From NCBI GenBank assembly GCA_902556905.1, contig CACDYK010000005.1, forward strand, positions 16,919 through 80,918: DNA of 64,000 bases. The letters run 5' to 3'. This DNA comes from an uncultured Pelagibacteraceae bacterium (lineage in GTDB: Bacteria > Pseudomonadota > Alphaproteobacteria > Pelagibacterales > Pelagibacteraceae). Under the pieces are notes generated by a model, which saw nothing but the letters and a program-made list of their open reading frames with translations, was not told the DNA's origin and ran no database searches. Position 1 is the first letter of the stretch. Each line of letters opens with the position of its first letter. The position numbers and the translations under genes were made by a program. Below, one piece after another: positions 38,744 to 64,000 of this stretch.

Positions 38744-39139
38744 ATGAAACTAACAATCCCTTATTATCTACATAAAGCAGGCGCTGGTTTCCCGTCCCCT
38801 GCAACTGATTATATCGAAGAAGATATTGATCTTAACATGCATTTAATAAGAAATGTTCCAGCTACTTTCATTATTAGAGTGCAAGGTAAATCAATGGTGG
38901 ATGTTGGAATTAATGATGGAGATTTATTGGTAGTCGACAAAAGTTTAAAACCAAAAAACTTTTCAACTGTGATTGCAAACGTTCATGATGAACTTGTAGT
39001 TAAAAGCTTAGTTCAAGAAAGAGATAAAAAGTTTTTAACGTCAGGATCTAAAGAATTTACTGACAGAATTTTAATTAACGAAGAACAAGATATCTTTATC
39101 TGGGGGGTTGTAACTTATGTCATCCATTCTACGTACTAA
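38744..39139 (+). CDS. umuD: UmuD-like S24 peptidase (DNA polymerase V subunit)
   Basis: GFPSPATDYIEEDIDLNMHLI; VQGKSMVDVGINDGDLLVVD (Ser); ELVVKSL (Lys). Confidence 0.93.
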   Translation: MKLTIPYYLHKAGAGFPSPATDYIEEDIDLNMHLIRNVPATFIIRVQGKSMVDVGINDGDLLVVDKSLKPKNFSTVIANVHDELVVKSLVQERDKKFLTSGSKEFTDRILINEEQDIFIWGVVTYVIHSTY

Positions 39140-45392: not shown

Positions 45393-46406
45393 TTAACCTT
45401 CTACTGCAGTAATGATTTGTCTAGCTCTATTAAGAACTGCATCACCATCAAGGCCTTTACCACTCATTTCTTTTAACCAATTAGATTCGATTGGTGCTAA
45501 TATTTTTTTATATTCAGCAATAACGTCATCTGATGCAATTATGATTTCATGATCTGCTCTTTTTGAGATTTCATTTTTCATTACCGCATTTTGATTATCA
45601 ATTAAGTTTGAAGCCCAATCACCAAAAGCATGACCACTGTATTTATTGATACAAGCTTGCGCGCCTGATGATAAGCTATTGAACTTATCTTCATTCATGA
45701 TCAAACCAAATGTAGCGTTAGTGATGTTAACTTCTGTATGATATTTAGTTACGTCAAATAATCTGAAAGATCCAACAGCAGTATATGGAAAAGGAGTTCC
45801 ATCAACTACGCCTTTGCTTAAAGCTTCTGAAGTTCCTGGCGCAGGTACTTTTACTCCAGTTGCTCCTAAAGTTTTTAAAATTGTGCCAGCGATTTTACTT
45901 GGTACTCTCATTTTCTTACCTTTAAAATCTGCAGGATTTACAACTTTAGTATCCTTCATATGAATTTGATATCCAGGATTAGAGTGAAGACCTATCACTT
46001 TAATGCCCGCCATTTCTTTATCAAGATAACCTTCTTTAAATAAAGAATTTAAAGCCGTTGTTCCAGCTTTAGAAGTTTTTGTAAGAAATGGTAATTCAAT
46101 TACTGAACTTAAAGGAAATTGACCTCCAATGTATCCTAATACAGTCCATGAAATATCTGCAACACCTGATGTTACAATATCATACTGCTTAGGAGGACTT
46201 CCTAAAACTCCACCAGCATACATTTTTACATTTAATGCTCCAGCTGAACATTGATTTACTTTTGTTGCCCAACCTGCAAGAATTTTACTTGCGATAAATG
46301 CCTTAGGTGGTTCAAAAGTAGCCAACTTAAGTTCAGTTGCCGCAGATGCACTAACTATGCTTAATGAAAAAATTCCAATAATTAATCCAATTAATTTTTT
46401 TTTCAT
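45393..46406 (-). CDS. TRAP transporter solute-binding protein (DctP family)
   Basis: Signal peptide; GGVLGSPPKQYDIVTSGVADISWTVLGY; FKGKKMRVPSKIAGTILKTLGATGVKVP. Confidence 0.9.
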   Translation of the reverse strand: MKKKLIGLIIGIFSLSIVSASAATELKLATFEPPKAFIASKILAGWATKVNQCSAGALNVKMYAGGVLGSPPKQYDIVTSGVADISWTVLGYIGGQFPLSSVIELPFLTKTSKAGTTALNSLFKEGYLDKEMAGIKVIGLHSNPGYQIHMKDTKVVNPADFKGKKMRVPSKIAGTILKTLGATGVKVPAPGTSEALSKGVVDGTPFPYTAVGSFRLFDVTKYHTEVNITNATFGLIMNEDKFNSLSSGAQACINKYSGHAFGDWASNLIDNQNAVMKNEISKRADHEIIIASDDVIAEYKKILAPIESNWLKEMSGKGLDGDAVLNRARQIITAVEG

Positions 46407-46456
46407 AAAATTATCCCCTTGTTGTTTATAATTATTCTAAAAGTGTAGCTTGAAAT

Positions 46457-47308
46457 TTAAACTATTTCATCCTTAATTGTATTAGATAAAACCCCAATCT
46501 GGGTTACTTCTATCTCAACTTTATCCCCTGGTTTCATGAAAACTGGCGGATTTCTTTTAAATCCAACCCCTCCAGGAGTACCTGTAACTAACACGTCTCC
46601 TGCTCTCCAAGCCATTGCTTTAGAAACATAGGAAATCAATATTGGAATATCAAAAATTAATTGGCTTAATTTTGCATTTTGCATCACTTCACCATTTAAT
46701 CTTGTTTCAAGAGTAAGTTCTTTATAATCTTTTATGTCTTCTGCAAGAACCATGTGAGGGCCAAAGCTTCCTGTTTTTTCAAAATTTTTTCCCATACCAA
46801 ATTGTCTTGTGTGTCTTTGCCAATCTCGAATTGTGCTTTCATTATAACAAGAATAACCAACTATATGTTTCAAAGCTTCTTCTGGTTTAATATGTTTTCC
46901 TGCTTCTCCCATAATTACTGCCATCTCTCCTTCAAAATCTAAATTATCAGAAGCAATTGGTCTTTGAATTGGTTGCATATGAGCAGTTTGACTTTCAGGA
47001 AAACGATGAAAAATAACAGGATTTTCTTCAACTGTTCTATTCGTTTCTTTAACATGCTCACTATAATTTAAACCTACGCAAATAATTTTTCCAGGATTAG
47101 GGATTAGCGGTAAATACTCAATATCATCTACACTTAACTTACCTGGATTTGTGCTTGCATAAGCTTTTGCCTCTGAAATACCATTTTTAGAAATAAGATC
47201 TTTTAAAGTATCTGCTCCTGATATTTTACCTGTTAGATCTGTAATTAAATTGTTGTCTATAACACCAAATTTTGGTTCTGAATTATGTTTGTAAGAAATA
47301 AATTTCAT
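46457..47308 (-). CDS. Fumarylacetoacetate hydrolase (FAH) family protein
   Basis: IICVGLNYSEHVKETN; LDFEGEMAVIMGEAGKHI; DVLVTGTPGGVGFKRNPPVFMKPGDKVEIEV. Confidence 0.92.
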   Translation of the reverse strand: MKFISYKHNSEPKFGVIDNNLITDLTGKISGADTLKDLISKNGISEAKAYASTNPGKLSVDDIEYLPLIPNPGKIICVGLNYSEHVKETNRTVEENPVIFHRFPESQTAHMQPIQRPIASDNLDFEGEMAVIMGEAGKHIKPEEALKHIVGYSCYNESTIRDWQRHTRQFGMGKNFEKTGSFGPHMVLAEDIKDYKELTLETRLNGEVMQNAKLSQLIFDIPILISYVSKAMAWRAGDVLVTGTPGGVGFKRNPPVFMKPGDKVEIEVTQIGVLSNTIKDEIV

Positions 47309-47389
47309 AATTAATACTTTCTGTTTAAAACAAACCTTATATGCTAATGTTTAATAAAATTGAAGAGACATTTTTATAAAAAATAAAAA

Positions 47390-47869
47390 ATGAATAAAAT
47401 ATTTGATTATTCAGCAATTGCTTCTGGGATAATACTTTTATTATTATCAGTATTAACTTTTTGTGATGTCTTTGGACGAAGATTTTTGAATTCACCAGTT
47501 ACAGGTACAATCGAATTAGTAGAAATTGGAATGGCTTTAGTAGCTTTTCTAGCAATGCCAAGAGCATTTTTTTTAAACGCAAACGTTTCTGCTGATTTTA
47601 TCAATAATTTAAATTTGGGAAAATTTAAAACTTATCTAATAATTCTAAAGTTTATTTTAATGATGATAATCATGTCTTTAATGGCTTATGCTACCACTAA
47701 AACTTCAATAAAATTTATGGGAAATGAAAGAGTTACTCTTGACTTAGAGTTATACTTTTATCCATTTTATTTTATCTCATCATTAGGAATGTGGTTAAGT
47801 GTACTTGCAATTATTGTTTGGTTTATAAAAGCTTTATCTGAAACAACCACAAAACTGAGAGATATATAA
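47390..47869 (+). CDS. TRAP transporter small permease (DctQ)
   Basis: Four TM; FCDVFGRRFLNSPVTGTIELVEIGMALVAFLAMPRAF. Confidence 0.88.
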   Translation: MNKIFDYSAIASGIILLLLSVLTFCDVFGRRFLNSPVTGTIELVEIGMALVAFLAMPRAFFLNANVSADFINNLNLGKFKTYLIILKFILMMIIMSLMAYATTKTSIKFMGNERVTLDLELYFYPFYFISSLGMWLSVLAIIVWFIKALSETTTKLRDI

Positions 47870-49179
47870 TGGACATGGATCCAATTATTAATGGTGGAAT
47901 AGCTTTTGCAGCAGTCTTAATACTAATGGTATTAAATATTCCAATTGGAATTGCGATGTTACTGGTTGGATTTACTGGTTTTGCATTAATTTCTGGATTT
48001 GATCCTGCTATTTTTGTGTTAGGCACTGCCCCTTTTGATGCGGTTTCAAAATATACATTATCAGTGCTTCCTCTTTTCGTTTTAATGGGAAATCTTGCTA
48101 ATAGCGCTAATTTATCAAGGAATTTATATGATGCTGCTTATGCAGTGGTTGGTCATTATAAAGGTGGGTTAGCAATGTCTACCGTTGGTGCGTGTGCTGG
48201 GTTTGGAATGATATGTGGTTCTTCAATTGCAACAGCAGCTACGATGTCACAAATGGCAGGACCAGAAATGAAAAGACATGGTTACAGTGATGCTTTGATA
48301 AGTGGTTCAATTGCATCAGGTGGAACTCTTGGAATTATTATTCCACCAAGTGTCATTTTAGTAATTTATGCATATTTAACAGAACAATCTGTTCAAGAAC
48401 TTTTCTTTGCGGCACTAATTCCAGGATTGATAGCTGTGGTTTTATATATGATTGCAATAAGAGTTTATCTTATAATTTATCCTTCTCACGGTGGTTATGG
48501 AAATAAAATGCCTCTCAAAGAAAGAATTGCAGCGATTACAAAAGTTTTTCCAATATTTTTAATTTTTGCAATAATTATGGGAGGTCTTTACCTTGGTTTC
48601 TTTACTGCAACAGAAAGTGCTGCTGTTGGAGTAGTACTAGTTTTATTATTCATTTTAGTAAGAGGCCAACTGACACTTAATTTATTAAAAGAAGCTTTAT
48701 GGACAACAATAAAAACAGTTGGTTCTTTATATTTAATTGTAATTGGTGCTAGTATTTTTAATTATTTAATTACAGTAACTCAATTACCCTTTGCAGTTGT
48801 TGATTTTATAAATCATTTAGAACTTACACCATTAGGAATTATTTTAGTTATTTGTGTTATTTATTTAGTCCTTGGAACGGTAATGGACTCTCTTGCAATG
48901 TTATTCCTAACTATTCCTGTTTTTTATCCTGTAATAGTTGATGCTGGAATAGACCCTGTTTGGTTTGGTATTTTTGCAGTGATAGTTGTAGAATTTGGAT
49001 TAATTTCACCTCCAGTTGGAATGAATTTATTTGTGATCAAAGGCGTAATGCAAAATACTCCTCTTCAAACTATATGGTTTGGAACTGTTCCTTTTTTAAT
49101 CACAGATGTAATTAGACTTGCTTTGATTATTGCATTTCCTGCAATATGTTTATACCTGCCTAGTTTAATGACACCTTAA
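47869..49179 (+). CDS. TRAP transporter large permease (DctM)
   Basis: GGLAMSTVGACAGFGMICGSSIATAATMS; GTLGIIIPPSVILVIYAYLTEQS. Confidence 0.93.
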   Translation: MDMDPIINGGIAFAAVLILMVLNIPIGIAMLLVGFTGFALISGFDPAIFVLGTAPFDAVSKYTLSVLPLFVLMGNLANSANLSRNLYDAAYAVVGHYKGGLAMSTVGACAGFGMICGSSIATAATMSQMAGPEMKRHGYSDALISGSIASGGTLGIIIPPSVILVIYAYLTEQSVQELFFAALIPGLIAVVLYMIAIRVYLIIYPSHGGYGNKMPLKERIAAITKVFPIFLIFAIIMGGLYLGFFTATESAAVGVVLVLLFILVRGQLTLNLLKEALWTTIKTVGSLYLIVIGASIFNYLITVTQLPFAVVDFINHLELTPLGIILVICVIYLVLGTVMDSLAMLFLTIPVFYPVIVDAGIDPVWFGIFAVIVVEFGLISPPVGMNLFVIKGVMQNTPLQTIWFGTVPFLITDVIRLALIIAFPAICLYLPSLMTP

Positions 49180-50084
49180 TGACAAAATTTAAAATTGGTA
49201 TTGATTATGGAGGAACTAAAATTGAAGGGATTCTTTTAGATCCAAATGGAGAAAAGTTAGAGAGAAAAAGATACTCTTATAATAAAAATTATTCATCAGG
49301 TATTTCAACTGTTCAAAAATTAGTAAATGAATTTGATAAAATTAGCGGAGAAATTTGTACTGTAGGAATTGGTATCCCAGGATTTTCATCTAAAGATACT
49401 GGATTAGTTACTAATGCTAATTCCTTATGGTTAAACGATAAACCATTCAAAAAAGATTTAGAAAGTGCGCTTAATAGAGATGTAAAATTAATGAATGACG
49501 CTAATTGTTTTACTTTATCAGAAGCAATTGACGGTGCTGGCAAAGATTTTAAATCAGTCTTTGGTATTATTATAGGGACCGGTTTTGGTGGTGGTTTATC
49601 TTATAAAAAAGAAATTATAGAAGGAGCAAATCAAATTGCTGGAGATTGGGGCCATCAACCACTTCCATACCCAACAACAGAAGAGATTGAAACTCAAATA
49701 AGTTGCCCTTCAAATAATTGTGGTAGAGCATTGTGCGCAGAACAATTTATGTCTGGAATAGGGTTTGCTGACATTTTTAATAAAAAGAATAATACTAATT
49801 TTAATTCTCATGAAATTGTGGAGCTTGATTTAAAAAATGATCCAAGAGCAAATTTAGAGTTTAATCTTTATGAAGATAGAATGGCTAGATTAATGGCGGT
49901 AATGATTGGAGTTTTTGATCCAGAAGCAATCATTCTTGGTGGAGGTATGTCTAACATAGATAGATTATACAAAAATATTCCTCCGTTATTATCGAAATAT
50001 ACTTTTTCAAATAAAGTAAAAACTAAGATCTTAAAAAATATTCATGGTGACTCGAGTGGGGTAAGAGGTGCAGCTTGGCTTTAA
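49179..50084 (+). CDS. ROK-family sugar kinase
   Basis: FKIGIDYGGTKIEGILLD; GTGFGGGL; GDWGHQPLP; CPSNNCGRALCAEQFMSG zinc motif region. Confidence 0.92.
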   Translation: MTKFKIGIDYGGTKIEGILLDPNGEKLERKRYSYNKNYSSGISTVQKLVNEFDKISGEICTVGIGIPGFSSKDTGLVTNANSLWLNDKPFKKDLESALNRDVKLMNDANCFTLSEAIDGAGKDFKSVFGIIIGTGFGGGLSYKKEIIEGANQIAGDWGHQPLPYPTTEEIETQISCPSNNCGRALCAEQFMSGIGFADIFNKKNNTNFNSHEIVELDLKNDPRANLEFNLYEDRMARLMAVMIGVFDPEAIILGGGMSNIDRLYKNIPPLLSKYTFSNKVKTKILKNIHGDSSGVRGAAWL

Positions 50085-50096
50085 ATAAAATATGAA

Positions 50097-51680
50097 TTAC
50101 CAAACACCAATCATTATACCATCATCCTTAGTATAATCTCTTTCTTTAGTCACAAACTCATCAGTTGCTGCAACTCTATTTTTTCTATCAATTATTCTTT
50201 TAAGAAGAAGCTCTTTCATCTCTTCTCTAATTTTTGAATGATCATTTGATCTACCTAAATCATTAAATTCATCTGGGTCATTTTTTAAATCAAATAGTTG
50301 AGGCTCAAATCCTTTATAATAAATATATTTCCATTCATTATTTCTAATCATAAAAGCTCTTGCATCAGATGCTCCTAAATTAAGAATTTTTCGAGCTTCA
50401 TTAAATGAATAATCAATTTCACTAAATACAAAATCTTTCCAATTTTTTGGATCTTCTCCTTTTATTACTGGCATTAAAGAATTCCCTTCTAACCTGTGTT
50501 TACTAACAGAACTTTCTACTGCATCTAAAAAAGTTGGAAGTAAATCAATTGCTTCAATAAATCTTTTTTCTTTAGTGCCTCTAGTTTTATTTGCATATTT
50601 ACTTGGATCATAAATTATCATTGGTACTCTTACAGATTGTTCGTGAAATAATTCTTTCTCACCTAACCAGTGATCTCCTTGGTAATCACCATGATCTGAG
50701 GTAAATACAATCATAGTGTCTTCCATACGACCAGCATCTTCTAAAAACTTAAATAATCTTCCTAAATTATCATCAATTTGTTTAATCAAACCCATGTATC
50801 CAGATAAAACTGTATTTCTAACTTCATCTTTTGAAAAAGTTTTTGATATACTATTTTCCATAAATGCTTTGTAAACTGGATGATCATTATTTCGTTCTGC
50901 ATCATTTCTATGCACAGGATAAAATTCATTGGCTGAATACATATTATGATAAGGAGCTGGTGCCATATAAGGCCAATGCGGTTTAATATAAGATAAATGT
51001 AGAAACCATGGTTTATCTTTACTCTCTTCAATAAATTCCATTGCACGATTAGTCATAAAAGCTGTTTCAGAATGTTTTTCAGGAATTCTTGCAGCTTTAT
51101 TGGAATTTCTTAATCTCCAACCACTTAAAATTTCTCCATTTTCACCTTCTGCAGAATTAGCCCAATCATTCCATGGATTAGGTCCATCGTAACCAAGTTT
51201 ATTTAACCATTCATTATAAGATAAAGTTTTTTTTGAATTTTTAATTTGATTATTTGGATGAAGTCCATCATCTCTTTCATAAGGATCAAAACCTGGCTCA
51301 CTTACTATTAATCCTATTTCAGTATCTTTAGTAATACCTAATCTACTCATACCTTCTAAATCTGGTCTCATATGTGTTTTACCAACAACGCCAGTTCTTA
51401 TTCCTGATTGACGGAGATAATCTCCAATAGTCAATTCTCCAATTGGAAGTGGAACTTGGTTCCATGTGGATCCATGGCTAAAAACAGTTCTTCCAGTATA
51501 GTAAGATGCTCTTGAAGGTCCACATACAGGTGATTGGACAAAAGCAGATTCAAACTGAACTCCTTTTTTTGCTAAACTATCAATGTTTGGAGTTTTTAAA
51601 TGAGGATGACCATAACAAGAAAGATAATCCCATCTTAACTGGTCAGCCATTATAAAAAGAATATTTCGAATTTTTTTCAT
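50097..51680 (-). CDS. Type I sulfatase
   Basis: ILFIMADQLRWDYLSCYGHPHLKTPNID; formylglycine motif CGPSRASYYTGR; FTSDHGDYQGDHWLGEKELFHEQSVRVP. Confidence 0.92.
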   Translation of the reverse strand: MKKIRNILFIMADQLRWDYLSCYGHPHLKTPNIDSLAKKGVQFESAFVQSPVCGPSRASYYTGRTVFSHGSTWNQVPLPIGELTIGDYLRQSGIRTGVVGKTHMRPDLEGMSRLGITKDTEIGLIVSEPGFDPYERDDGLHPNNQIKNSKKTLSYNEWLNKLGYDGPNPWNDWANSAEGENGEILSGWRLRNSNKAARIPEKHSETAFMTNRAMEFIEESKDKPWFLHLSYIKPHWPYMAPAPYHNMYSANEFYPVHRNDAERNNDHPVYKAFMENSISKTFSKDEVRNTVLSGYMGLIKQIDDNLGRLFKFLEDAGRMEDTMIVFTSDHGDYQGDHWLGEKELFHEQSVRVPMIIYDPSKYANKTRGTKEKRFIEAIDLLPTFLDAVESSVSKHRLEGNSLMPVIKGEDPKNWKDFVFSEIDYSFNEARKILNLGASDARAFMIRNNEWKYIYYKGFEPQLFDLKNDPDEFNDLGRSNDHSKIREEMKELLLKRIIDRKNRVAATDEFVTKERDYTKDDGIMIGVW

Positions 51681-51735: not shown

Positions 51736-52752
51736 CTAAAAATCTAAAATTTTTTTAGATCCATCACTATATGTAAATTCTACTTGTTTTTTTGAAATGC
51801 TTTTAATTGATGTAAATCCATCATATTCAGCAATAAATTCATTTAATTTTTTTCTACCCTTTTTACTCATTTTTTTTCCTGGAGCATTAACACCGACATC
51901 GATAATTAACTCAGCTCCATTTAAAAATGCTTTTACCCAAGCTTTTACTGGAGCGCCACAAGTCATAGCTTCGGTTAACCAAATAGGTTTATTTACATCT
52001 ACACTTTTTAGTAAGGCTGCAAATTCATCCACCCATAGTTCTTTATCACACTGACCATCCGGGCCGCTTATGTGGTGAATATTTGCAATATCAAAATGAT
52101 CTTTAATTTTTGGCAAAACTGATTTCCAATATTTTTTATTTTCAGGAAACATTCCTGCAGCACCCGCCATTACAATGACGGCATCTGGCTGCTTTTCCTT
52201 AATTACTTTGGAAGAAAAATTAAAAATTTCTACAAAGTCTTCCTTGCTTCCTTTAAAAAACATTTTAAACTCTGGTTCATTCATGACATCCCAATATTTT
52301 ATAGGTTTAGTTAATCCTGGCATATCATTTGAGCCATCTCCGTCATAACGATCAACCAATTTAAAAAGGAAAGTTTTATAATCATCCATAGAACAAGGTT
52401 TGCTTAGATATTTCGTAAAACGCTTTCCAAAAGGACTTCTTGCTTTTTTTCTTTTACAGGATTTTTGCTCCCAATTTGCATGAGGCCAAATAGTGGCTAA
52501 AATTGTTTGATTATGTTCTTGAGCATAAACGACATATTTATCTACTTCTTCCCAAGTAAACTTTCCTTTTTCTTTTTCAATGTGGTTCCAAATAAATGGC
52601 CCTGGATGAGGTCTTACCCATTGACCATCTTTTCCTCTCATTCTTTCATCACGCATTTCTGTTAATTCACCAAATCTTGATTTAGAATAAGAAAAATTTA
52701 TCGAAAAAATAATAAAAATTAAAAAGTTTAAAAAAATTATTTTGTTTTTCAT
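51736..52752 (-). CDS. Secreted clan GH-A-like glycoside hydrolase
   Basis: Signal peptide; FTWEEVDKYVVYAQEHNQTILATIWPHANWE; KYWDVMNEPEFK (acid/base Glu); KPIWLTEAMTCG (nucleophile Glu). Confidence 0.75.
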   Translation of the reverse strand: MKNKIIFLNFLIFIIFSINFSYSKSRFGELTEMRDERMRGKDGQWVRPHPGPFIWNHIEKEKGKFTWEEVDKYVVYAQEHNQTILATIWPHANWEQKSCKRKKARSPFGKRFTKYLSKPCSMDDYKTFLFKLVDRYDGDGSNDMPGLTKPIKYWDVMNEPEFKMFFKGSKEDFVEIFNFSSKVIKEKQPDAVIVMAGAAGMFPENKKYWKSVLPKIKDHFDIANIHHISGPDGQCDKELWVDEFAALLKSVDVNKPIWLTEAMTCGAPVKAWVKAFLNGAELIIDVGVNAPGKKMSKKGRKKLNEFIAEYDGFTSIKSISKKQVEFTYSDGSKKILDF

Positions 52753-52767
52753 TTTAAAAAATTAATT

Positions 52768-55251
52768 TTATTTTGGATCAGGACCTGGACCTGGACCTGG
52801 ATCACCTGGGCCTCCTGGATTACCTGGACCTGCTGGATTACCTGGACCTCCTGGATTACCTGGTGCACCTTCACCGCCCATAGCACCTTCTACTGCACCT
52901 CCGATGTTGCCCATAGCTCCACCTGGATCACCCATAGCTCCACCCATGGCTCCTCCTGGATCACCCATAGCTCCTCCCATGGCTCCACCTGGATCACCCA
53001 TGGCTCCACCCACGGCTCCACCAGCTTGACCTGCCATAGCTCCGGCCATTGAGCCGCCCATTACGCCGCCCATTCCTTCTTTCATAGCTCCGCCCATGGC
53101 TTCACCCATGGCTCCTTCACCCATACCTTCCATTCCCATTGCGGCTCCCATTGCATGAGAACCCATTGCTGAAGCAGCAGCTCCTTGAGCAGACATCGCT
53201 GCTCCCATTGCAGCACCTGCTAAACCTGATCCTGCTTCGTTAGCTGCCATAGCAGCTCCTGCTACTGAACCCATTGCTTTTCCAGGATCTATTCCTGTTC
53301 CCATTGCAGCAGATACTTGTCCTAAATTCATTCCACCTTTCATCATGGCACCATCCATTGCACCCTCCATACCTTTAGGATTTCCCATGATATCTCCAAG
53401 TTTAGCTCCTTCTGGACCAGCTGCTAATCCCATGCTGGCTGCCATTTCAGGATTCATTTGAGCATTTAAATCCATTTCACCCATTCCTACTATACCACCA
53501 CTCATAGCTGCTAATCCCATGTCGCCACCTTCCATTCCCATGGCGCCACTTAATTCTTTCATTCCTTTAGCTCCCATTGCTGCCATAGTACCTTGGTTAA
53601 CCAAGCCAACTTCCATCATGTCCCCCATTTCTCCAACAGACATATTTCCTTCTTTTGCCATGTTCGCTATACCTTGAACTGCTTTACTTCCTAATCCAGC
53701 GACATTAGTTGACATAACTGAAGTGATATCCATTCCAGCCACTCCAGCTGCTCCCATACTAGCAACCATTCCTGGTGTTAATCCTGTTTGTGTAGCCATG
53801 TCTGCCATTCCTAATTTATCCATTGTTCCGACATCCATTCCTGTCATATTTGCCATAGCTTCGCCCATTTCAGCCTTTCCCATGCCTTGCATAACATCTC
53901 CCATCATTTGTCCTGATGGAGCGTCACCTGTCAACATAGCTCCCATAGCTGTTGCTGTCATTCCTTCAGGAGGAGCCATTGCACCAGGCAGACCTCCAGC
54001 TAAAGATGGTTTTGCCATAACCATAGCTCCCATCATCATGCCTGACTCACTAACATTCTCTGGCATTTCTAAAGCCTGTGGTCCAGCTTCTCCCATTTTA
54101 CTAGCAAAAGAACCTTTTATTTCTGTTCCTTTTTGGAGTGCATTTTTTTCTTTAGGAGTTTTTCCTGATATAGCCTGACTAATCATTCCTACAGTTCCTG
54201 ACATTGCGTTAGCAATACCTACTTCTGGATTTGCGAATGCAGTAGATAAAGATTTAGCCATATCTTCCATTCCCATATCAGCCATTGCTTTTCCAATTTC
54301 TTGCATTCCTTCAATACCTTTCATTCCATCTGCCATATTTGCCATTCCTTGCATACCAATACTGGTTTCCATACTTTTCATCATATCTTCACCCATACCT
54401 TTTGCACTCATTGTAGCAACTATAGCCCCTGTCATAGTCTTACCCATTTTTCCCATTGCTTCAGGATTAGCTGCTAAAGTTTCTAAAGCAGCAGTTGCTG
54501 CTCCAACAGGTAAAGCTTCTAGGGCTCCAGTCATCATTGCAGGGTTCATTCCCATCTCTGCAACATTCATAGATGCAAAATTTCCCGCATCAAAACTTCC
54601 CATATCAAACTTTGCAGATCCTGTAACAGCTTCCATATCAACCATTCCTGCATTAGCGAGACCTTCCATTGCAGCTCCCATTCCAATTCCTTGAGCATCA
54701 AGTGATCCCATCATTCCTTTTGCATCAAAGCCAGCAGCACCAAGAGCATTCATTTGTCCTGCCATTTTTTGCATAGCTACAACTTTTCCAGCTCCCATTT
54801 GTCCAGCAATACTTGATAAAGCAGCCATTTCTGCTGGAGAAAAATCTTTTCCAAAATCTATACCTGTCATATCTAGTGCTGTTGGATCTGGAATAGCTCC
54901 TAGAGCCATATCAGTAACACCTTCTACTAATGACATTGCTTGAACTGCTGAAGTAATATCTCCTTTTGCTAAACTCTCTGTTGCAAATGACATTGCACTT
55001 TCAGCTTGTGCTATTGAAACATCTAAAGCTTTACCAATATCACTTTTAGCCTCACCTAAGGCTTCAGTTGCTCCAGCTATATTTGCTGCTACTTTTCCAG
55101 CATCAGAAGCTAGTTGATCAGCTGCAGCTTGTGCTGAACTCCCTGCTGCTTCAGAAATTCCTGACATAGAAGTAATATCATTTGCTTTAGCTGTTATATT
55201 TATAAATAATAAAAATATTATTAAGTTTTTTACAATAACTTTTCTGATCAT
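52768..55251 (-). CDS. Secreted Met/Ala/Gly-rich low-complexity repeat protein with collagen-like C-terminal tail
   Basis: 827-aa ORF with signal-like MIRKVIVKNLIIFLLFINITAKA; continuous reading frame through repetitive MGxAM-like text; ATGA overlap with the upstream gene. Confidence 0.8.
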   Translation of the reverse strand: MIRKVIVKNLIIFLLFINITAKANDITSMSGISEAAGSSAQAAADQLASDAGKVAANIAGATEALGEAKSDIGKALDVSIAQAESAMSFATESLAKGDITSAVQAMSLVEGVTDMALGAIPDPTALDMTGIDFGKDFSPAEMAALSSIAGQMGAGKVVAMQKMAGQMNALGAAGFDAKGMMGSLDAQGIGMGAAMEGLANAGMVDMEAVTGSAKFDMGSFDAGNFASMNVAEMGMNPAMMTGALEALPVGAATAALETLAANPEAMGKMGKTMTGAIVATMSAKGMGEDMMKSMETSIGMQGMANMADGMKGIEGMQEIGKAMADMGMEDMAKSLSTAFANPEVGIANAMSGTVGMISQAISGKTPKEKNALQKGTEIKGSFASKMGEAGPQALEMPENVSESGMMMGAMVMAKPSLAGGLPGAMAPPEGMTATAMGAMLTGDAPSGQMMGDVMQGMGKAEMGEAMANMTGMDVGTMDKLGMADMATQTGLTPGMVASMGAAGVAGMDITSVMSTNVAGLGSKAVQGIANMAKEGNMSVGEMGDMMEVGLVNQGTMAAMGAKGMKELSGAMGMEGGDMGLAAMSGGIVGMGEMDLNAQMNPEMAASMGLAAGPEGAKLGDIMGNPKGMEGAMDGAMMKGGMNLGQVSAAMGTGIDPGKAMGSVAGAAMAANEAGSGLAGAAMGAAMSAQGAAASAMGSHAMGAAMGMEGMGEGAMGEAMGGAMKEGMGGVMGGSMAGAMAGQAGGAVGGAMGDPGGAMGGAMGDPGGAMGGAMGDPGGAMGNIGGAVEGAMGGEGAPGNPGGPGNPAGPGNPGGPGDPGPGPGPDPK
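52919..53017 (-). repeat. Three tandem 33-bp repeats encoding GGAMGDPGGAM units
   Basis: ccacctggatcacccatagctccacccatggct / cctcctggatcacccatagctcctcccatggct / ccacctggatcacccatggctccacccacggct. Confidence 0.93.
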
Positions 55252-55793
55252 TCAGCTGCCTCAATTTTTTCTTGTGCTTTAATGGTTGCTGCTCTTTGAG
55301 CATTTACTTTTGCTGTTGCAATTTGTTTTTTTAAATTAGCTAGCACTGCCGCACGCTCAGCTATTTCTGGTGTCAATTTTTTTTCTTTCTTTTTTTTATT
55401 TTTTTTATTTTTTTTGTATGCTGCTTTGAGCATTTTACCTGTTGCCCAAAATTTTAAAATTGCTTCCGACGATTTAGCTTTAGGAGAAATATTCAAACTC
55501 ATTCTCATTGCTTCTCTTCCTTTTTTTAAACCTTCTAAAGTTTCAACTTTTGCTTTTCTATCATTAAGCATTTCATTAAATAAGGCTTCAAAGTATGCCA
55601 TGTCTCTAATCATTAGATGCTGATATTTATTAAGACTTGATTTACCTTTAACAAACCTTTTGTAAACTTTTGATCCTGCTTCGCCTTGTTTTTGTTTGCT
55701 TTTAATTAAACTTTCATGAAACATTCCTTCAGGATAATCTATGTTTTCATGAATGAATGCAGCGGGTCTCTCATTTTCTGGCCAATCACCCAT
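55248..55793 (-). CDS. Hypothetical Lys/Ala-rich protein; true N-terminus probably upstream (open frame to about 55945)
   Basis: ORF overlaps the Met-rich gene by ATGA; upstream in-frame text reads KFKYLNFLFQIVIIFTIIIFSSSNLEAAKKKDEEKDCIYCKKYEKM, resembling a signal peptide plus CxxC, but with no NTG codon. Confidence 0.65.
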   Translation of the reverse strand: MGDWPENERPAAFIHENIDYPEGMFHESLIKSKQKQGEAGSKVYKRFVKGKSSLNKYQHLMIRDMAYFEALFNEMLNDRKAKVETLEGLKKGREAMRMSLNISPKAKSSEAILKFWATGKMLKAAYKKNKKNKKKKEKKLTPEIAERAAVLANLKKQIATAKVNAQRAATIKAQEKIEAAE

Positions 55794-56073: not shown

Positions 56074-57081
56074 TTAAAAAGGTGCAGGACTTCCTTTTCT
56101 ATAACTAAAACTTTTACACTGAGCAGGTTGATTAGGAAATTGTTTACAAAGTGAAACGTCTACTACTCCATGAACTTGGGATTGGTTTTTTAGTTGACCT
56201 GTTATTTCATCACAACCATTCCACAATTCATCACAACTATCTGCCTTACCAACATTAGAGTAACGAATTGTTGCATCATTTATCTTTAACCCAGCATTAG
56301 TAGCATCATCCATATGATTTCTGTAAGGTCCAAATTTAAATCTTGCACTTGTGGCACCAGCCATCATATCACCAAAATAGCTTGATCTAAGTTTGCCATC
56401 AATCCATAAATGAAGAAATCCATCTTTGGCCCACTTTGCATTAACAAGTATATTCACCCACTTGCCTTTAAGAGGAGAGTAATTATGATCTAAATCAACT
56501 GCGTAAGCATCAAAGTAATAAGCTTCAGATTTCTCATTCTTTTTAACTATATAATTTGGAGTATTAAACAACCAACCAAAACTGTTATTAGAATAATTAA
56601 AAGAAGGTCCTACGGTTTTTTCACCTTTGCCGTATAACATTTTAAAATCAAACAATGATAAATTATGCTTTGGCGTATTAACATCTTTTGACAAGAAATA
56701 CCCTACTCTATACCACTTAGTTTTACCTTTTTTTGTAGTATGTTTGTAAGGTTCCATAATTTGAAATCTTTGAGCATGACCTGGTTTACCCCATCTATTC
56801 CAATCATCTTTGTGACCTTTATCAGAATACTTTAAATTAAATTCAATTCCTTGCTCAGCAACACCCATGTGATCTTCAATCTTATCAAAAAATTTATAAA
56901 GACCATTTTTATTTGGAGCATTTCTACTGTTAAAAACCATTTTATTTTTTGACTGGGCTTTTAAAACATAACGTCCAAAATCTTTCTTTTCCTGCTTTTT
57001 CATATTTGTATGCCATTTTCCAGCATAAGAAAGTGATGGCAATAAAAGAAGGGATAGAAGAATAATTATAATTTTTTTCAT
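56074..57081 (-). CDS. Secreted polysaccharide-lyase-like (heparin-lyase-I/PF14099-type jelly roll) protein
   Basis: Signal peptide; GKWVNILVNAKWAKDGFLHLWIDGKL, also found in the neighbouring paralogs. Confidence 0.7.
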   Translation of the reverse strand: MKKIIIILLSLLLLPSLSYAGKWHTNMKKQEKKDFGRYVLKAQSKNKMVFNSRNAPNKNGLYKFFDKIEDHMGVAEQGIEFNLKYSDKGHKDDWNRWGKPGHAQRFQIMEPYKHTTKKGKTKWYRVGYFLSKDVNTPKHNLSLFDFKMLYGKGEKTVGPSFNYSNNSFGWLFNTPNYIVKKNEKSEAYYFDAYAVDLDHNYSPLKGKWVNILVNAKWAKDGFLHLWIDGKLRSSYFGDMMAGATSARFKFGPYRNHMDDATNAGLKINDATIRYSNVGKADSCDELWNGCDEITGQLKNQSQVHGVVDVSLCKQFPNQPAQCKSFSYRKGSPAPF

Positions 57082-58004
57082 TTAATTACATGTACTTTTT
57101 CTAATTTTTGATTTTCTAAATCCTTACAAGAATAACTAATTTTTTTTAAATTAATTTTTTTACAAGATGATGCTGTTCTTATTTCATCATAATAAACAAC
57201 ATGATTTGCGTCTCCAGAATTTTTAGCAGCACCTCTATATATTCCCAACTGATGAATTGCTGCATCATCTGCTTCAGGTCCAATAGTTCTTCCCTTAAAA
57301 TGATAAATAAGTTTTCCGTTTAACCAAAATTTAAAATAACCTTTTTTTTCGTTATTTGTCCAATTGGCACTAAAAATAAAGTCATTCCATTTTCCAAACA
57401 ATTGATCACTATCAAGAATTTTTATTCTTCTATTCTCAGGATCATTGGAAGAGCATGATCTTCCTATTTTTTTTGGATGAATACATAAAAACCTTGTCAC
57501 TAAAAGAAATTGATCATGCTCAAGATCCAAATTTACAGGTGGGTAGGATACATTTAATGAATGAAATTGACCCATTGTTATCCATTCAGAGATTACTTTT
57601 GGATTATCTTTTGGTAAATAAATTGAATATGTATGCCATTTCTTTCCTAAAATATCATTTCTGTTAGTAAGCTCGTGTCTTTCTGCCGGAGGTGTTGCTT
57701 TACAATCATTATAAGAACCTTTTCTTTTTTGATGACAATCTCCTTTTCTTAATTCCATTCTAATTGATTTTTTTCCAAGTCTTACTGGATGGTTGTCTTT
57801 TTTATTTACAATTTGTAAAGCATATTTAGGTGCCATACATTTACCGTCATCTGTCCATGTGCAAAATAATTCCCAAGGGTTTTCATATCCTCTTGCAACG
57901 TCTTTTGGTAACTTTACTCCATTTTTAACATTCATCTTTTCTCCAAAGACATTGCTAAAAGAAAATAAAGATAAAATAAAAAAAATAATTAAAGTTTTTT
58001 TCAT
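57078..58004 (-). CDS. Secreted polysaccharide-lyase-like protein (PF14099-type)
   Basis: VRLGKKSIRMELRKGDC...AERHELTNRND; FGKWNDFIFSANWTNNEKKGYFKFWLNGKLIYHFKGRTIG; VVYYDEIRTASSC. Confidence 0.77.
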   Translation of the reverse strand: MKKTLIIFFILSLFSFSNVFGEKMNVKNGVKLPKDVARGYENPWELFCTWTDDGKCMAPKYALQIVNKKDNHPVRLGKKSIRMELRKGDCHQKRKGSYNDCKATPPAERHELTNRNDILGKKWHTYSIYLPKDNPKVISEWITMGQFHSLNVSYPPVNLDLEHDQFLLVTRFLCIHPKKIGRSCSSNDPENRRIKILDSDQLFGKWNDFIFSANWTNNEKKGYFKFWLNGKLIYHFKGRTIGPEADDAAIHQLGIYRGAAKNSGDANHVVYYDEIRTASSCKKINLKKISYSCKDLENQKLEKVHVIK

Positions 58005-58888
58005 TTTTGACTCTCAATTTCTTTGCAAGAGTATCCTAAATCTTTAAGTTTAAGTTTTTTGCATGACTTTGCTATTCTTATCTCATCATAATAAGCTATT
58101 TGGGTTGCATCAGGCTCAGGTGTTCTGTGTATAAATGATCTATATACGCCAACATGAAATTCTGTCCGCTCTCCTTTGTGTTGAGTTGCCCCTTTCCAAT
58201 GAAATTTCAACTTTCCATTGATCCAAATTTTAAAAAAACCATCTTTTTTATATGTCCACTTCGTATTAACCAAAATATCATTCCATTTACCGTGCATGTC
58301 TGTCTTATCTAATAATTTTATTGGAATATTATTTCCTCCGACATATCTATCAACTTCAATCCAATAACCTCCAGCATCTTTTTTTGACTTATTAAACTGA
58401 TTTTCAAAAGCAAAAGCTGGGGGATAATCACCATCATTATGAAATTGAGCCAACATTGTTTTAGCAGGATAAATTATTTTATAATCGTCTGGTAGATATA
58501 AAGACCAAGCTGACCATGTAGTTTTTTTGTTAACGCAACATATTAATAACTCAACTCTTTCTCTATTATTTCTTGAGTCCCAGCCCCATCCGTCTCCATC
58601 TCTAACTTCAAATCTTAATGACTGTTTTCCAAATCTAACTGGATAATTTTTTGATTTATTTACTATCTTAACAACATGTTTTCTAGAATCTTTATCTGAG
58701 TCTAAAATTTTTTTATTTGTTACTCTCCAATTATTAGGTTTATTATCTTCTCCTCTATCTATTATTTTTTTAAATCCTTGAGCTATATCTTTATTTTTTT
58801 TGATTTCTTTAAGGACTTCTTCGACACCTGCAAAACTATTGCCACATAGCAATAAACTTATGAGTATGATTCTTAAAAAATTTTTCAA
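58001..58888 (-). CDS. Secreted polysaccharide-lyase-like protein (PF14099-type), TTG start
   Basis: RFGKQSLRFEVRDGDGWGWDSRNNRERVEL; GKWNDILVNTKWTYKKDGFFKIWINGKL; TTGA overlap with the upstream gene. Confidence 0.8.
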   Translation of the reverse strand: MKNFLRIILISLLLCGNSFAGVEEVLKEIKKNKDIAQGFKKIIDRGEDNKPNNWRVTNKKILDSDKDSRKHVVKIVNKSKNYPVRFGKQSLRFEVRDGDGWGWDSRNNRERVELLICCVNKKTTWSAWSLYLPDDYKIIYPAKTMLAQFHNDGDYPPAFAFENQFNKSKKDAGGYWIEVDRYVGGNNIPIKLLDKTDMHGKWNDILVNTKWTYKKDGFFKIWINGKLKFHWKGATQHKGERTEFHVGVYRSFIHRTPEPDATQIAYYDEIRIAKSCKKLKLKDLGYSCKEIESQK

Positions 58889-59763
58889 TTTTGACTCTCA
58901 ATTTCTTTGCAAGAGTATCCTAGTTCTTTAAGTTTAAGTTTTTTGCAAGACTTTGCATGTCTTATCTCATCATAATAAGCTATTTGAGTTGGATCTGGCT
59001 TATTTGTTCTAGACAAAAATGATCTGTATACACCGACATGAAATTCTATTCTTTCACCTTTTTCTTGTGTCCTACCTTTGTGATGATAGGCAAGTTTTCC
59101 ATTGATCCAAATTTTAAAAAAACCATCTTTTTTGTGAGTCCATTTTGCATTGACTAAAATATCATTCCATTTTCCAAACATTTCTGACTTATCTAGTAAT
59201 TTTGATTGTTTATTGTATCCAGAGATATATCTATCAACATCAATCCAATATCCCCCTCCGCTAGAGTGAGATTGGTTTTCAAAAGCAAAAGCTGGTGGAT
59301 TATCGGCATCATTATGAAATTGAGCCATCATAGTCTTAGCAGGATAAATTATTTTATAATCGTCTGGTAAATATAATGACCAAGCTGTCCATGTTGTTTT
59401 TTTATTAACACAACATATAAGTAACTCAACTCTTTCTCTGTCATTGCTAGCATCCCAGCCCCATCCGTTTCCATCTCTAACTTCAAATCTTAATGACTGT
59501 TTTCCAAATCTAACTGGATGATTGTCAGACTTATTTACTATTTTAACAACATGTTTTCTTAAACTCTTGTCTGTGTCATAAATTTCATGAAATGGAACTC
59601 TCCAATTATTAGATCTATTATCATCTCCTTCATCTTTTACTCTCTTATACCCTTGAACTATATCTTTATTCTTTTTAATTTCTTTCAGAACCTCTTCGAC
59701 ACCAGCAAAACTAATATTGCCACAAACTAAAAATAAAATGATAGTTGTTAAAAATTTTTTCAT
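58885..59763 (-). CDS. Secreted polysaccharide-lyase-like protein (PF14099-type); start corrected from 59805
   Basis: MKKFLTTIILFLVCGNISFAGVEEVLKEIKKNKD start; close paralog of 58001..58888. Confidence 0.8.
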   Translation of the reverse strand: MKKFLTTIILFLVCGNISFAGVEEVLKEIKKNKDIVQGYKRVKDEGDDNRSNNWRVPFHEIYDTDKSLRKHVVKIVNKSDNHPVRFGKQSLRFEVRDGNGWGWDASNDRERVELLICCVNKKTTWTAWSLYLPDDYKIIYPAKTMMAQFHNDADNPPAFAFENQSHSSGGGYWIDVDRYISGYNKQSKLLDKSEMFGKWNDILVNAKWTHKKDGFFKIWINGKLAYHHKGRTQEKGERIEFHVGVYRSFLSRTNKPDPTQIAYYDEIRHAKSCKKLKLKELGYSCKEIESQN

Positions 59764-61259
59764 TATCCTCCAAAAGCTACTTGGCTTGAATAATGCACAT
59801 AACAACCATTTTCATGTTTATCGGTACATTTTTTCATAGCCTCTTCAATAGCTTGTTCTTTACTGTCTGTTCTAACTTTAATTAAAACTTTATCGTCAGA
59901 TTTATTTTTTACTATAGCAATAAATTCAAATCTTTTTCCCGAAGGTTTAATTTTTGATAAATCAGCATAAGCGCATGCACAATTAACACCATAGCCATGA
60001 CTCCATCCTATTTTTGTCCAATATCCATATGGTTTCATATAATATTTAATAATTTTTTTACTTACATCAGTGTTTGGAAATCTTTTTAAATATGCATAAG
60101 ACCAACCTAAACTATTGTCACCAAAATTAGCTTTCAAAACTTTTTCTCTTTGTTGTCTTTCTGGGTCAATATACTTTTTCTTCTTCACGCCAGATTCTGG
60201 ATAACCAAGATATGAAATTAAAAAATCAATCATTTTATGAACTGTAACTCCTTTTTTTGTTTCATATGAGTAAAGATCGTAACCTTGATTTTTAAATATT
60301 TCTGCAATCATCACCATTCCACCTACAACCTGAGTAAATTTTTCTAATCCTCTAATACTTCGTTTGCTATGTTTTTCTTGTTTTCGAATTTCCCAAGGAG
60401 AACTGCCATCTTTTCTAGTTAATTTAAGAGCAACCAAATAATATTTAAGACCTGCCTGGAAATATTCATCATTTCCACTGATTACACCCCACATTGTATA
60501 AACTCTTGCTTTAGAGGCTTCAGTATGATTTGCAGGAGGAAATTTATCTCCTGGTTTTCCTGAACCATCTAATTCTCCAATTGATGTTTTGGCAACCACT
60601 CTTTCAAACCAATCATAAAGTATTTTGTCTTCGCTCTCAGTTAAAGCATTTGCTTGTCTTAATAGATCATAACCAAATAACATTCTAACTATTGTTTGAC
60701 GTACATATTCTAAGGTATCTATATAGCCAAAGTTTCCTCCCCATGCTTCACCATCTGATATTAGTACCTGATACGCATCTGCTTTAGCCCATGCCAATAA
60801 TTGTTTTTTTAAAAAATTTAGGTAAACCTCCTCACCTGTTGCCATCCAGTGAGAATTAAGTTGATTTGTATTATCCACCATTTTAGCTGATGGATTGTCA
60901 CCAGTTATAGGTGTAGCACCCTCTTGCCATTTAAAACCTCTTCCTTCTAAAATTGGTTCAATTAATATTTGGTTTCCAGCTTTAACTTTTTGAGCATAGC
61001 CTGTTTGAAGTCCACATAATTTATTTATGTTTTTGAATAGCTTAAGTTTTTTTTGTCTTTCACTAATATCTATATAAATTATAGAGCCTGGCTTATTTAC
61101 TTTAAAATCTTTTAAACTAATTTTACCTGGAACTTTTAATTTTTTTGGTGTTTTTCCTGCAATTGAAACTATGGGGCTTTTAAGTTTAGGGTAATCTTCT
61201 GCAAAAGAAGTAGAAAGAATTAATAAAAATATTATTGATATCCCTAATAGTTTTTTCAT
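59763..61259 (-). CDS. Secreted alginate-lyase-like (PL5/PF05426-type) protein with C-terminal Cys tag; start corrected from 61301
   Basis: MKKLLGISIIFLLILSTSFAEDYPKLKSP; NHTEASKARVYTMWGVISGNDEYFQAGLKYYLVALK; ends NGCYVHYSSQVAFGG. Confidence 0.75.
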   Translation of the reverse strand: MKKLLGISIIFLLILSTSFAEDYPKLKSPIVSIAGKTPKKLKVPGKISLKDFKVNKPGSIIYIDISERQKKLKLFKNINKLCGLQTGYAQKVKAGNQILIEPILEGRGFKWQEGATPITGDNPSAKMVDNTNQLNSHWMATGEEVYLNFLKKQLLAWAKADAYQVLISDGEAWGGNFGYIDTLEYVRQTIVRMLFGYDLLRQANALTESEDKILYDWFERVVAKTSIGELDGSGKPGDKFPPANHTEASKARVYTMWGVISGNDEYFQAGLKYYLVALKLTRKDGSSPWEIRKQEKHSKRSIRGLEKFTQVVGGMVMIAEIFKNQGYDLYSYETKKGVTVHKMIDFLISYLGYPESGVKKKKYIDPERQQREKVLKANFGDNSLGWSYAYLKRFPNTDVSKKIIKYYMKPYGYWTKIGWSHGYGVNCACAYADLSKIKPSGKRFEFIAIVKNKSDDKVLIKVRTDSKEQAIEEAMKKCTDKHENGCYVHYSSQVAFGG

Positions 61260-62437
61260 TATCCTCCAAAAGCAACCTGGCTTGAATAATGCACATAACA
61301 ACCATTATTCTCTAAATCAGATAAATCAGAGAAGTTTTCAACACATTTAGACATACCTTTTTTAGACGCTCCCTCTTTGCTATATCCTAAATATTTTAAC
61401 AAATATTTGTCATCCTTCTTGTTTTTGATAATTGCAAGAAAATTTCCTTTCATTTCTTTAAAGTTAATCTTTTTTGGAACTACCTTTGATGTAATTCTTT
61501 TAATCTTTTTAGCACCCTCAGGAATATAATGTCTATCACTTACTCTATATTTATATTTTGTTTTCGGAACGTTATCTTTAGATTTATATTTACATTTATC
61601 TTTATCCATTATTTTTTGACAATCTTTGCTTATTGCATATTCTTTTATAGATAATACAGATGGTTCAATCATTTTTGAGTCTAATTTTGCATTCCAATAA
61701 CGATACAAACCGATCTTAAATGCAATTCCTCCCGTTTTATCTAAAATCATATTTGGTCCATAAAATTCAATTACTCTCTCGTCATTCAACCACATTATAA
61801 ATTCACCATCATCTTTTTTAGAAGGTTTTATTTTGAATAGCGCTGTCTGATATCTTTTGTTAAATGCATGCAGGCTTCCTATATCAAATTTATAGGTTGT
61901 AGATTTAAATCTATTTGCTGATGGATCAATATCGGTCCAGAATACTTCCTCAATTTGTTTATAATAAAACTGTACTCTATTAGGAAGATCATCTTCATCA
62001 GTCGTATATCTAATCTGCATAGAAGGATAAATAATTTCACCTCCCTTTTTTGTTCCAACCACTTGCCAGATATTGGCACTATGATTTTGACCAGCATTTA
62101 ATTTAAATATATATTTTAAATAAACTTCCTTACCAAGCTTGTGATAATTTTTTTTTTTTGTAACAAATTCCCATCTTTGAGCTTGATCATCAGAAAGATC
62201 CCAATCTTCTGGATGTCCTTTCATTGAATAATCTAGAGTGATTTCTATAGCTTCCTCATCTTTATTATAATGAAGTATTTCTTTATGTTTTGTAAGGGAG
62301 TCATAGGCAAGAGCCATCTTCTTCTTTGCATCGCCACCCAATATTTCTTTTTTAAAAATTTTTAAAGGATTATCTTTTGAATAGGAAATATTACATATCA
62401 ATAAAGCTGAAATGATAATTGTTAAAAGTTTTTTCAT
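61259..62437 (-). CDS. Secreted polysaccharide-lyase-like (PF14099-type) protein with C-terminal Cys tag; start corrected from 62449
   Basis: MKKLLTIIISALLICNISYS; MKGHPEDWDLSDDQAQRWEFVTKKK; EFIMWLNDERVIEFYGPN; ends NGCYVHYSSQVAFGG. Confidence 0.72.
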   Translation of the reverse strand: MKKLLTIIISALLICNISYSKDNPLKIFKKEILGGDAKKKMALAYDSLTKHKEILHYNKDEEAIEITLDYSMKGHPEDWDLSDDQAQRWEFVTKKKNYHKLGKEVYLKYIFKLNAGQNHSANIWQVVGTKKGGEIIYPSMQIRYTTDEDDLPNRVQFYYKQIEEVFWTDIDPSANRFKSTTYKFDIGSLHAFNKRYQTALFKIKPSKKDDGEFIMWLNDERVIEFYGPNMILDKTGGIAFKIGLYRYWNAKLDSKMIEPSVLSIKEYAISKDCQKIMDKDKCKYKSKDNVPKTKYKYRVSDRHYIPEGAKKIKRITSKVVPKKINFKEMKGNFLAIIKNKKDDKYLLKYLGYSKEGASKKGMSKCVENFSDLSDLENNGCYVHYSSQVAFGG

Positions 62438-63699
62438 TAATTCATACACTTTGGTTCAAACCCAAAGTTTCTATCTACAAAATAAGCTGATTTTTTCGAT
62501 TTCCACATCCTATCATTTGCAACAATAGTATGATCTCTGTCTGTGTAATTCTCAATTAACCAATCTAATGAAATAGCCATCTGGTGTGTGTGATATGCGG
62601 CATCTTTTTGTTCTTTTGTATGATTCTGTAGTTGTTTAGGATCTTTACGTTTTCTATAAGTTTTAACGTCTGTAAGACCTAGGTTTAGTACATCAACAGT
62701 TTTGTCTATTTTTTTCTTTAATTTTTTTGGAAACTTTTTGTAACCCCATAGTTCAGCTATAGCATAAAGTCCTAGCAAATTGTTCACACCCTTTGAATGA
62801 TACCAAACATCTTTAACACCCCTGAAACTGTTATTATGAATATAGCCATCCTTGTAAACAACCTTATTAGCTTTTTTAATTCCTCTCTTAATCCATTTCG
62901 ATGCTTCCTCTGGTTTATCTTTCCAAGCTAAATATGATAATACAGAAACAGTTCCATCAGCCATTTGAAAAAAACCTACTGATGATTTACCTGCTGATAA
63001 AGTCCACGGCTCGATATACTTTTTGTATAAAGTATCAATATACTTATCAATAATTTTAAATTGTTTTTTAGTAAATTGATCTCTCATCAAATATGCTTGT
63101 TGGATATAAGTGCTTCCATATATTTGAACTTCTTGAGGTCTGTGTGAAAGACAAGGTTTGTCACCTTTAGCTTTACCGCCGCCATAACAACTCTTGGCTT
63201 TACCTTGTTTTTTTAGTTGGCTAATTTCTTCATCAGTTAATGTGTTCAACATCACACCTGCCTCTGCCCAGGCTACCATAACTTCAGCAATAATTGGGCC
63301 ATGTTCCTCCATTTTATTATCTATGATTGCTGTAACAATTGCTCCATGCAGTAGTGCCATCCTATTAGTATGTTTTTCGTGATTAACATATACACTGTTT
63401 GATCTTAGTACGTGATCTTTGTTCCAATCATACTTGGTAAATTTCATTAAATGATCATAATTATTTCCTTGAAGTTCAGGATTTTTTTTTTTGCTTACAT
63501 GAGTTATGGCAAGATCCAATTCCCAATATGTTTTGCCCCAACTTCCATGACCATGCACACCTTCTAGTGGGCAAGTTTCTCTTGTAAGCTCGTTTGCAAA
63601 GAAATATTTTGGAATAACAATATCATTTTTCTTTGCGTGAGCACTACTACTTAACAACAAGCTAAGAAATAGAATAACTAAAAATTTTTTTATTAACAT
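62437..63699 (-). CDS. Secreted alginate-lyase-like (PF05426-type) protein
   Basis: Signal peptide; GSWGKTYWELDLAITHVSKK; NNSFRGVKDVWYHSKGVNNLLGLYAIAELWGY; TAATG junction with the next gene. Confidence 0.7.
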   Translation of the reverse strand: MLIKKFLVILFLSLLLSSSAHAKKNDIVIPKYFFANELTRETCPLEGVHGHGSWGKTYWELDLAITHVSKKKNPELQGNNYDHLMKFTKYDWNKDHVLRSNSVYVNHEKHTNRMALLHGAIVTAIIDNKMEEHGPIIAEVMVAWAEAGVMLNTLTDEEISQLKKQGKAKSCYGGGKAKGDKPCLSHRPQEVQIYGSTYIQQAYLMRDQFTKKQFKIIDKYIDTLYKKYIEPWTLSAGKSSVGFFQMADGTVSVLSYLAWKDKPEEASKWIKRGIKKANKVVYKDGYIHNNSFRGVKDVWYHSKGVNNLLGLYAIAELWGYKKFPKKLKKKIDKTVDVLNLGLTDVKTYRKRKDPKQLQNHTKEQKDAAYHTHQMAISLDWLIENYTDRDHTIVANDRMWKSKKSAYFVDRNFGFEPKCMN

Positions 63700-64000
63700 C
63701 CAAATTGTTTCATAAAGTCTTTATAAGCTTTTGTACCTGGCTCAAAATCAAGCTCATTATCTTGTAAATATTTTGCTATAGGCTTATATTTTGTTCCAAA
63801 AGTTCCATCGTCTTTCATATATTGAAAAGGGATACCTTTGCATACTTTGCCAGAGGTAGCATCAATTTGCACAAAATTTAGCGCTTTTGATGAATTTTTT
63901 GATTTAATACTTTTAATTATTTTAGATCCACCAGTTTTGCCTTTTCTTTCTTTTTTCTTATACTTTAAACTTGTTTTGGATTGTCTATCATTAGATTTAT
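63693..64000 (-). CDS. Partial CDS, C-terminus of a Lys-rich protein, cut by the window edge
   Basis: Open minus frame ending ...KALNFVQIDATSGKVCKGIPFQYMKDDGTFGTKYKPIAKYLQDNELDFEPGTKAYKDFMKQFGC*, overlapping the start of 63699 by 7 nt. Confidence 0.6.
   Translation of the reverse strand, partial: KSNDRQSKTSLKYKKKERKGKTGGSKIIKSIKSKNSSKALNFVQIDATSGKVCKGIPFQYMKDDGTFGTKYKPIAKYLQDNELDFEPGTKAYKDFMKQFGC

Follow-up and report, generated by a model that had tools for sequence, protein, structure and literature searches.

Jelly-roll polysaccharide lyases are recognized by a signature consisting of an arginine, a QxH motif and a tyrosine, and periplasmic AlgL, of the PL5 family, trims alginate. The described proteins closest to the genes considered here are the glucuronan lyase of PF14099/PL20 (PDB 2zzj) and the PL5 lyases A1-III, AlgL, Smlt1473 and PanPL. 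As regards genomic setting, two arrangements invite comparison: HVR2, a hypervariable region of SAR11 genomes that harbours cell-surface genes between the 23S and 5S genes (Wilhelm et al. 2007, PMC2217521), and the DUF1800-DUF1501 pairs that adjoin bacterial chitin synthases (PMC5122149). The lyase families themselves and variable surface islands in SAR11, such as HVR2, are already known. No prior account of the island described below was found among papers dealing with CAZymes or polysaccharide lyases in SAR11, a search that left most subscription papers outside its reach.

A run of seven lyase-like genes

The window is a stretch of 64,000 nucleotides from an uncultured Pelagibacteraceae bacterium (genome G000) and coincides at its far end with the end of contig C5. 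Seven consecutive minus-strand open reading frames, overlapping head to tail, occupy positions 56074-63699, and the start/stop overlaps noted in the initial annotation are confirmed. The true starts of three genes (58885, 59763 and 61259) are the internal ATG codons at positions 59763, 61259 and 62437, respectively; the TTG or GTG extensions upstream of them merely read through the overlap. An eighth gene (63693-63998, minus strand) is truncated by the contig end and weakly resembles 61259-subfamily proteins in their C-terminal part (E = 0.002); a comparison gave no support to its being the end of a DUF1501 gene. When inspected by eye, all seven proteins display a lysine-rich, hydrophobic N-terminus with an A-x-A-like site, in keeping with the signal peptides first proposed, and none carries a clear lipobox. 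Leaders of this kind point to export at least as far as the periplasm.

Five members of the run are jelly-rolls of PF14099 and the other two are alpha/alpha toroids of PL5 type, the very composition put forward in the initial annotation. Pfam assignments were accepted above the gathering score, and six proteins pass the PF14099 or PF05426 cut-off. The jelly-roll members are encoded at 56074-57081 (subfamily PLc, 2.6e-7), 57078-58004 (6.2e-25), 58001-58888 (6.4e-22), 58885-59763 (1e-22; 78% identical to 58001) and 61259-62437 (subfamily PLb, 1.6e-9), all on the minus strand. Profile comparison of the family, including 58001, found one solved relative, the glucuronan lyase 2zzj (E = 1.3e-13). 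The protein at 59763-61259 (minus strand) matches PF05426 Alginate_lyase (3e-20) and A1-III both in sequence (6e-11) and in fold. That at 62437-63699 (minus strand) has no Pfam or NCBIfam match. Its family profile matches AlgL weakly (E = 0.02), and its predicted structure (pLDDT 66, pTM 0.76) finds PL5 lyases as top PDB matches, namely Smlt1473 (E = 2e-4), PanPL and A1-III; its description as an alpha/alpha alginate-lyase-like protein is upheld on these two grounds. The structure models derive from shallow alignments and contain low-confidence loops, so that the overall fold alone was used. Since both folds are those of polyuronate lyases, glucuronan, mannuronan or similar polymers are the putative substrates.

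Two proteins of different fold, 59763 and 61259, share a DUF4189-like C-terminal tail of 55-63 residues (about 55 residues in 59763, at 59763-59933, minus strand), modelled as a separate beta-beta-alpha-beta unit. The last 60 nucleotides of the two tails are 87% identical and similarity drops going upstream. Eight copies of the tail were counted in 61 genomes, and at the loci examined it occurs only on PF14099 or PL5 lyases or, once, in a short remnant.

Active sites and selection

Alignment shows the full R / QxH / Y signature in three of the seven proteins: 57078, 58001 and 58885 retain R111, Q148, H150 and Y249 (58001 numbering), with QFH as the central motif. The arginine lies in an RxE motif where 2zzj has a histidine, and the histidine of the window enzymes follows in QFH. 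The remaining four proteins have altered sites. In 61259 arginine, glutamine and tyrosine are kept and a valine stands in place of the histidine; its subfamily (n = 11) reads QVIA, QVVG or QTVG. In 56074 arginine and tyrosine are likewise kept and DFK replaces QFH, as it does in 12 of the 14 subfamily members. PLb and PLc have lost the QFH histidine, and the window lyases further differ from 2zzj in being located together with a glycosyltransferase pair and PL5 proteins. Neither PL5-type protein of the window holds the complete catalytic N-H, R and Y set of its family. In 59763, as judged by comparison with PL5, the N-H pair is retained and the catalytic tyrosine has become phenylalanine, and the extra C-terminal domain sets it further apart; in 62437, R293...Y300 occurs at the same spacing as R239...Y246 of A1-III, and the N-H pair is missing.

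For the five lyase genes that have close orthologues dN/dS ranges from 0.07 to 0.29, which indicates purifying selection; 59763 and 62437 were left out of this set, their relatives being distant (35-36% identity). Selection is strong on the altered gene 56074 (dN/dS 0.066 against L059), and on this ground its product probably has a function.

The four altered sites lend some support to a reading in which many members are by now lectins or pseudo-lyases, serving to bind or to shield a surface glycan, and few are active enzymes. The strong conservation of the DFK subfamily, which constitutes the sole lyase-like cargo of several islands, would fit this scenario. Nevertheless it appears rather unlikely: QFH persists in the three window members and in 42 of 59 PLa-type sequences, solitary PL5a proteins of other islands retain N-H, R and Y, and DFK could represent another catalytic arrangement.

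A hypervariable SAR11 island

The records retrieved by similarity searches are Pelagibacteraceae single-cell genomes, and their comparison places the seven-gene run as cargo of a hypervariable SAR11 island. In relatives one edge of this island is petABC-FNR-GST-DksA-GT39-GT2 and the other is umuC-umuD-GFA-glxK-tolC-recA-alaS, conserved flanks that bear out the synteny expected in the initial annotation. The GT39 protein is of the PMT_2 type (PMT/ArnT-like) and forms with GT2 a lipid-linked-sugar glycosyltransferase pair. In many islands GT2 is followed by DUF1800 and DUF1501 proteins, the latter with a Tat signal. In the window genome contig C1 ends with GT39-GT2-DUF1800-DUF1501 and contig C5 with the lyases; the far edge is marked by umuD-umuC (38744-40394, plus strand; umuC 39117-40394). 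With umuC and the GT2 at the C1 end as edges, and assuming that C1 and C5 join as they do in relatives, the island spans no less than 23.6 kb of C5 and a further 4 kb of C1. It is distinct from HVR2, with which it shares hypervariability and a probable cell-surface function: some 120 kb separate it from the 23S gene in G146 and more than that in G147, a distance that rules out identity, its flanks are GT39-GT2 and umuCD, and it carries exported lyases where HVR2 contains LPS synthesis genes. The DUF1800-DUF1501 pair resembles that of the chitin synthase loci in its Tat-bearing DUF1501 and its proximity to polysaccharide genes; it differs in lying between GT2 and the lyases, and no chitin synthase was seen in the island. 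The known place of such pairs beside chitin synthases gives a further hint of polysaccharide handling. Two tandem DUF1800-DUF1501 pairs occur directly after or near GT2 in L059 (3285-7005), L116 and L117.

Next to the lyases, the window island accommodates a small lysine-rich protein of no known family (55248-55793, minus strand), which stays with its neighbour in two relatives. This neighbour is an exported protein of 827 residues (52768-55251, minus strand), repetitive and rich in methionine, glycine and alanine. The protein ends in a collagen-like Pro-Gly-rich region; its gene contains repeats of 33-36 bp and has a GC content of 0.43-0.45, compared with about 0.30 in the surrounding DNA; among the relatives compared only L059/L116, L113 and L048 possess it. 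Then follow an exported, weakly GH10-like glycosidase-like protein (51736-52752, minus strand), a recurrent cargo that takes the place of a lyase in L128, and a sulfatase or phosphonate-ester hydrolase-like enzyme (50097-51680, minus strand). The latter has no signal peptide and appears cytoplasmic, which does not agree with the part in a surface-matrix system originally envisaged for it. A TRAP transporter block with an FAH-family protein and a ROK sugar kinase (45393-50084) is cargo in several relatives. Exported beta-lactamase-like serine hydrolases (cluster BLA) are also recurrent cargo, and the window copy (40396-41817) has no Pfam match.

This assemblage calls to mind a glycan-use locus, in which exported lyases would cut dissolved acidic polysaccharides or oligosaccharides that enter the periplasm by way of porins; uptake and processing of the products would fall to the TRAP transporter, the ROK kinase and the cytoplasmic sulfatase. 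Complementary lyase types, a glycoside hydrolase, a sulfatase, a transporter and a sugar kinase do occur together in the window, and lyase content differs between lineages as that of niche genes does. On the other hand, no TonB receptor (PF00593) was matched in the window genome, nor any in the island, and only 3 of 61 genomes of the genus have one; KduI is found in none of the 61, the window genome included. Moreover, the TRAP block has dioxygenase/FAH-type genes as its neighbours, most lyase-bearing islands lack it, and single lyases are found with the glycosyltransferase pair alone. A locus for glycan use is therefore a less likely, though not negligible, alternative. Missing TonB receptors and KduI count against a classical utilization locus, are compatible with scavenging, and make uronate use less likely than trimming or binding of the cell's own surface glycan.

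Lyases and the GT2 gene across genomes

PF14099 is present in 44 of 101 genomes of the genus and in 70 of 198 genomes of the order, and PF05426 in 25 of the 101. Outside the window genome, the genomes in which GT2 could be located contain 73 PF14099 genes, 44 of which lie within 20 kb of GT2 where about three (2.9) would be expected; in the same comparison, made by hand, this holds for 18 of 21 PF05426 genes. The other 29 PF14099 genes are located elsewhere, for example alone within the his operon. In six genomes (L082-L087:10001) the histidine operon is interrupted by one PF14099 lyase gene, between a hisH-like gene and hisA.

Forty GT2-anchored loci, picked without regard to lyases, yielded 35 closed, fully spanned islands. 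At least one lyase is present in 19 of these and six are empty, the remainder containing only PEP carboxylase, urease, DUF1800/DUF1501, glycoside hydrolase or sulfatase genes. The number of lyases ranges from one to about eight per island over many lineages, and where the slot holds one gene this may be a PF14099 member of either of two subfamilies or a PL5 protein of either of two types. A lyase directly after GT2 starts between -1 and +16 nt from the GT2 stop codon, and with so short a gap the two genes are likely to be on one transcript. In many genomes the slot between GT2 and umuC contains a PEP carboxylase gene (L061:4983-7670, L098-L110), which often immediately precedes a lyase, and a urease cluster is located within the same island in L118, L120, L121, L122, L071, L072 and L079. 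In L096 (12476-15387) the cargo includes a HATPase-like protein of 764 residues and a partner of 206 residues, possibly a defence pair, which has no PADLOC match.

Enzyme exchange in the slot

Closely related loci capture the slot in different states. GT2 and umuC are 5 bp apart in L126, L130 and L131, and one lyase fills this space in L124, L125 and L127, whose GT2 is 93-96% identical and umuC nearly identical to those of the empty loci; between the empty L126 and the occupied L127, GT2 is 94% and umuC 100% identical. In L128 a glycoside hydrolase gene lies between two remnants of a lost lyase, its first about 29 nt and its last about 33 nt. From GT2 onwards L128 matches L127 (94% over 89 nt) up to about nucleotide 29 of the cargo gene and then diverges; on the far side similarity returns some 33 nt ahead of the stop codon of the lyase (90% over 94 nt), and the hydrolase ends at its own stop codon ahead of the old one. 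As read from these alignments, the junctions are the scar of a lyase replaced by a glycoside hydrolase. Non-homologous lyases are likewise swapped in one slot beside GT2. A tentative extension of these observations, for which the odds are somewhat against us, is that exported glycan-cutting enzymes of unrelated fold are exchanged by recombination within shared signal-peptide ends and 3' tails and are translationally coupled to the conserved GT2-GT39 pair, which would give each lineage its own set for surface-glycan editing.

Such hypervariable placement and turnover would also fit an arms race, with lyases acting as weapons or shields that degrade the capsules or matrix of other cells or strip phage-bound glycan. 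This appears improbable, as neither a secretion system nor a defence gene was found with the lyases, the leaders predict periplasmic export only, and at the sensitivity used no relative of 58001 was found in phage records or viral contigs. The latter search, a test for close relatives only, also yielded nothing in favour of a phage origin, and the lack of a PADLOC match dismissed a defence system.

A proposed role on a glycan of the cell itself

The explanation that we favour for the whole is that the island stores exported glycan-active enzymes beside GT39-GT2 and that these act on the cell's own surface glycan; its probability is put at slightly below one half. Of the two roles considered at the outset, use of a foreign glycan and trimming of the cell's own polysaccharide, the second fits better, because the lyases are tied to the GT2/GT39 pair by anchoring, shared orientation and close spacing, and by reason of the missing TonB receptor and KduI. 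What did not hold is the likeness to an alginate export system: neither the window nor the islands of its relatives show a polysaccharide synthase, Wzx/Wzy or an outer-membrane exporter, such as Alg8, AlgE or Wza, so that the lyase island is not an alginate-type operon, and neither 59763 nor 62437 belongs to one. Position alone is no proof of a joint pathway either, since the pair is also found where the slot is empty or filled by housekeeping genes such as those of PEP carboxylase and urease. The 29 PF14099 genes remote from GT2 and the four window proteins with altered sites likewise count against the favoured explanation. The core of the initial annotation stands, as lyase homology, secretion and synteny are supported and catalytic residues are complete in three of the seven proteins.

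Under the favoured explanation GT2 would make a polyprenyl-phosphate sugar, which the PMT/ArnT-type GT39 would use outside the inner membrane, and the pair may thereby contribute to the synthesis or decoration of a periplasmic or surface glycan that contains uronate. Those lyases whose active sites are complete would cut this glycan, in the manner of periplasmic AlgL on alginate, and members with altered sites may bind it or cut it by means of another set of residues. A change of enzyme set from one lineage to the next would then alter the surface glycan, plausibly under pressure from phages and grazers.

Concluding remarks

The empty, single-lyase, replaced and multi-lyase versions of the island, set in near-identical flanks, form a natural series, and the question they raise can be tested with single proteins. 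One to about eight lyases for acidic glycans per lineage point to either a surface glycan or a carbon source that has so far gone unexamined. The island suggests that the minimal cells of SAR11 remodel a surface glycan.
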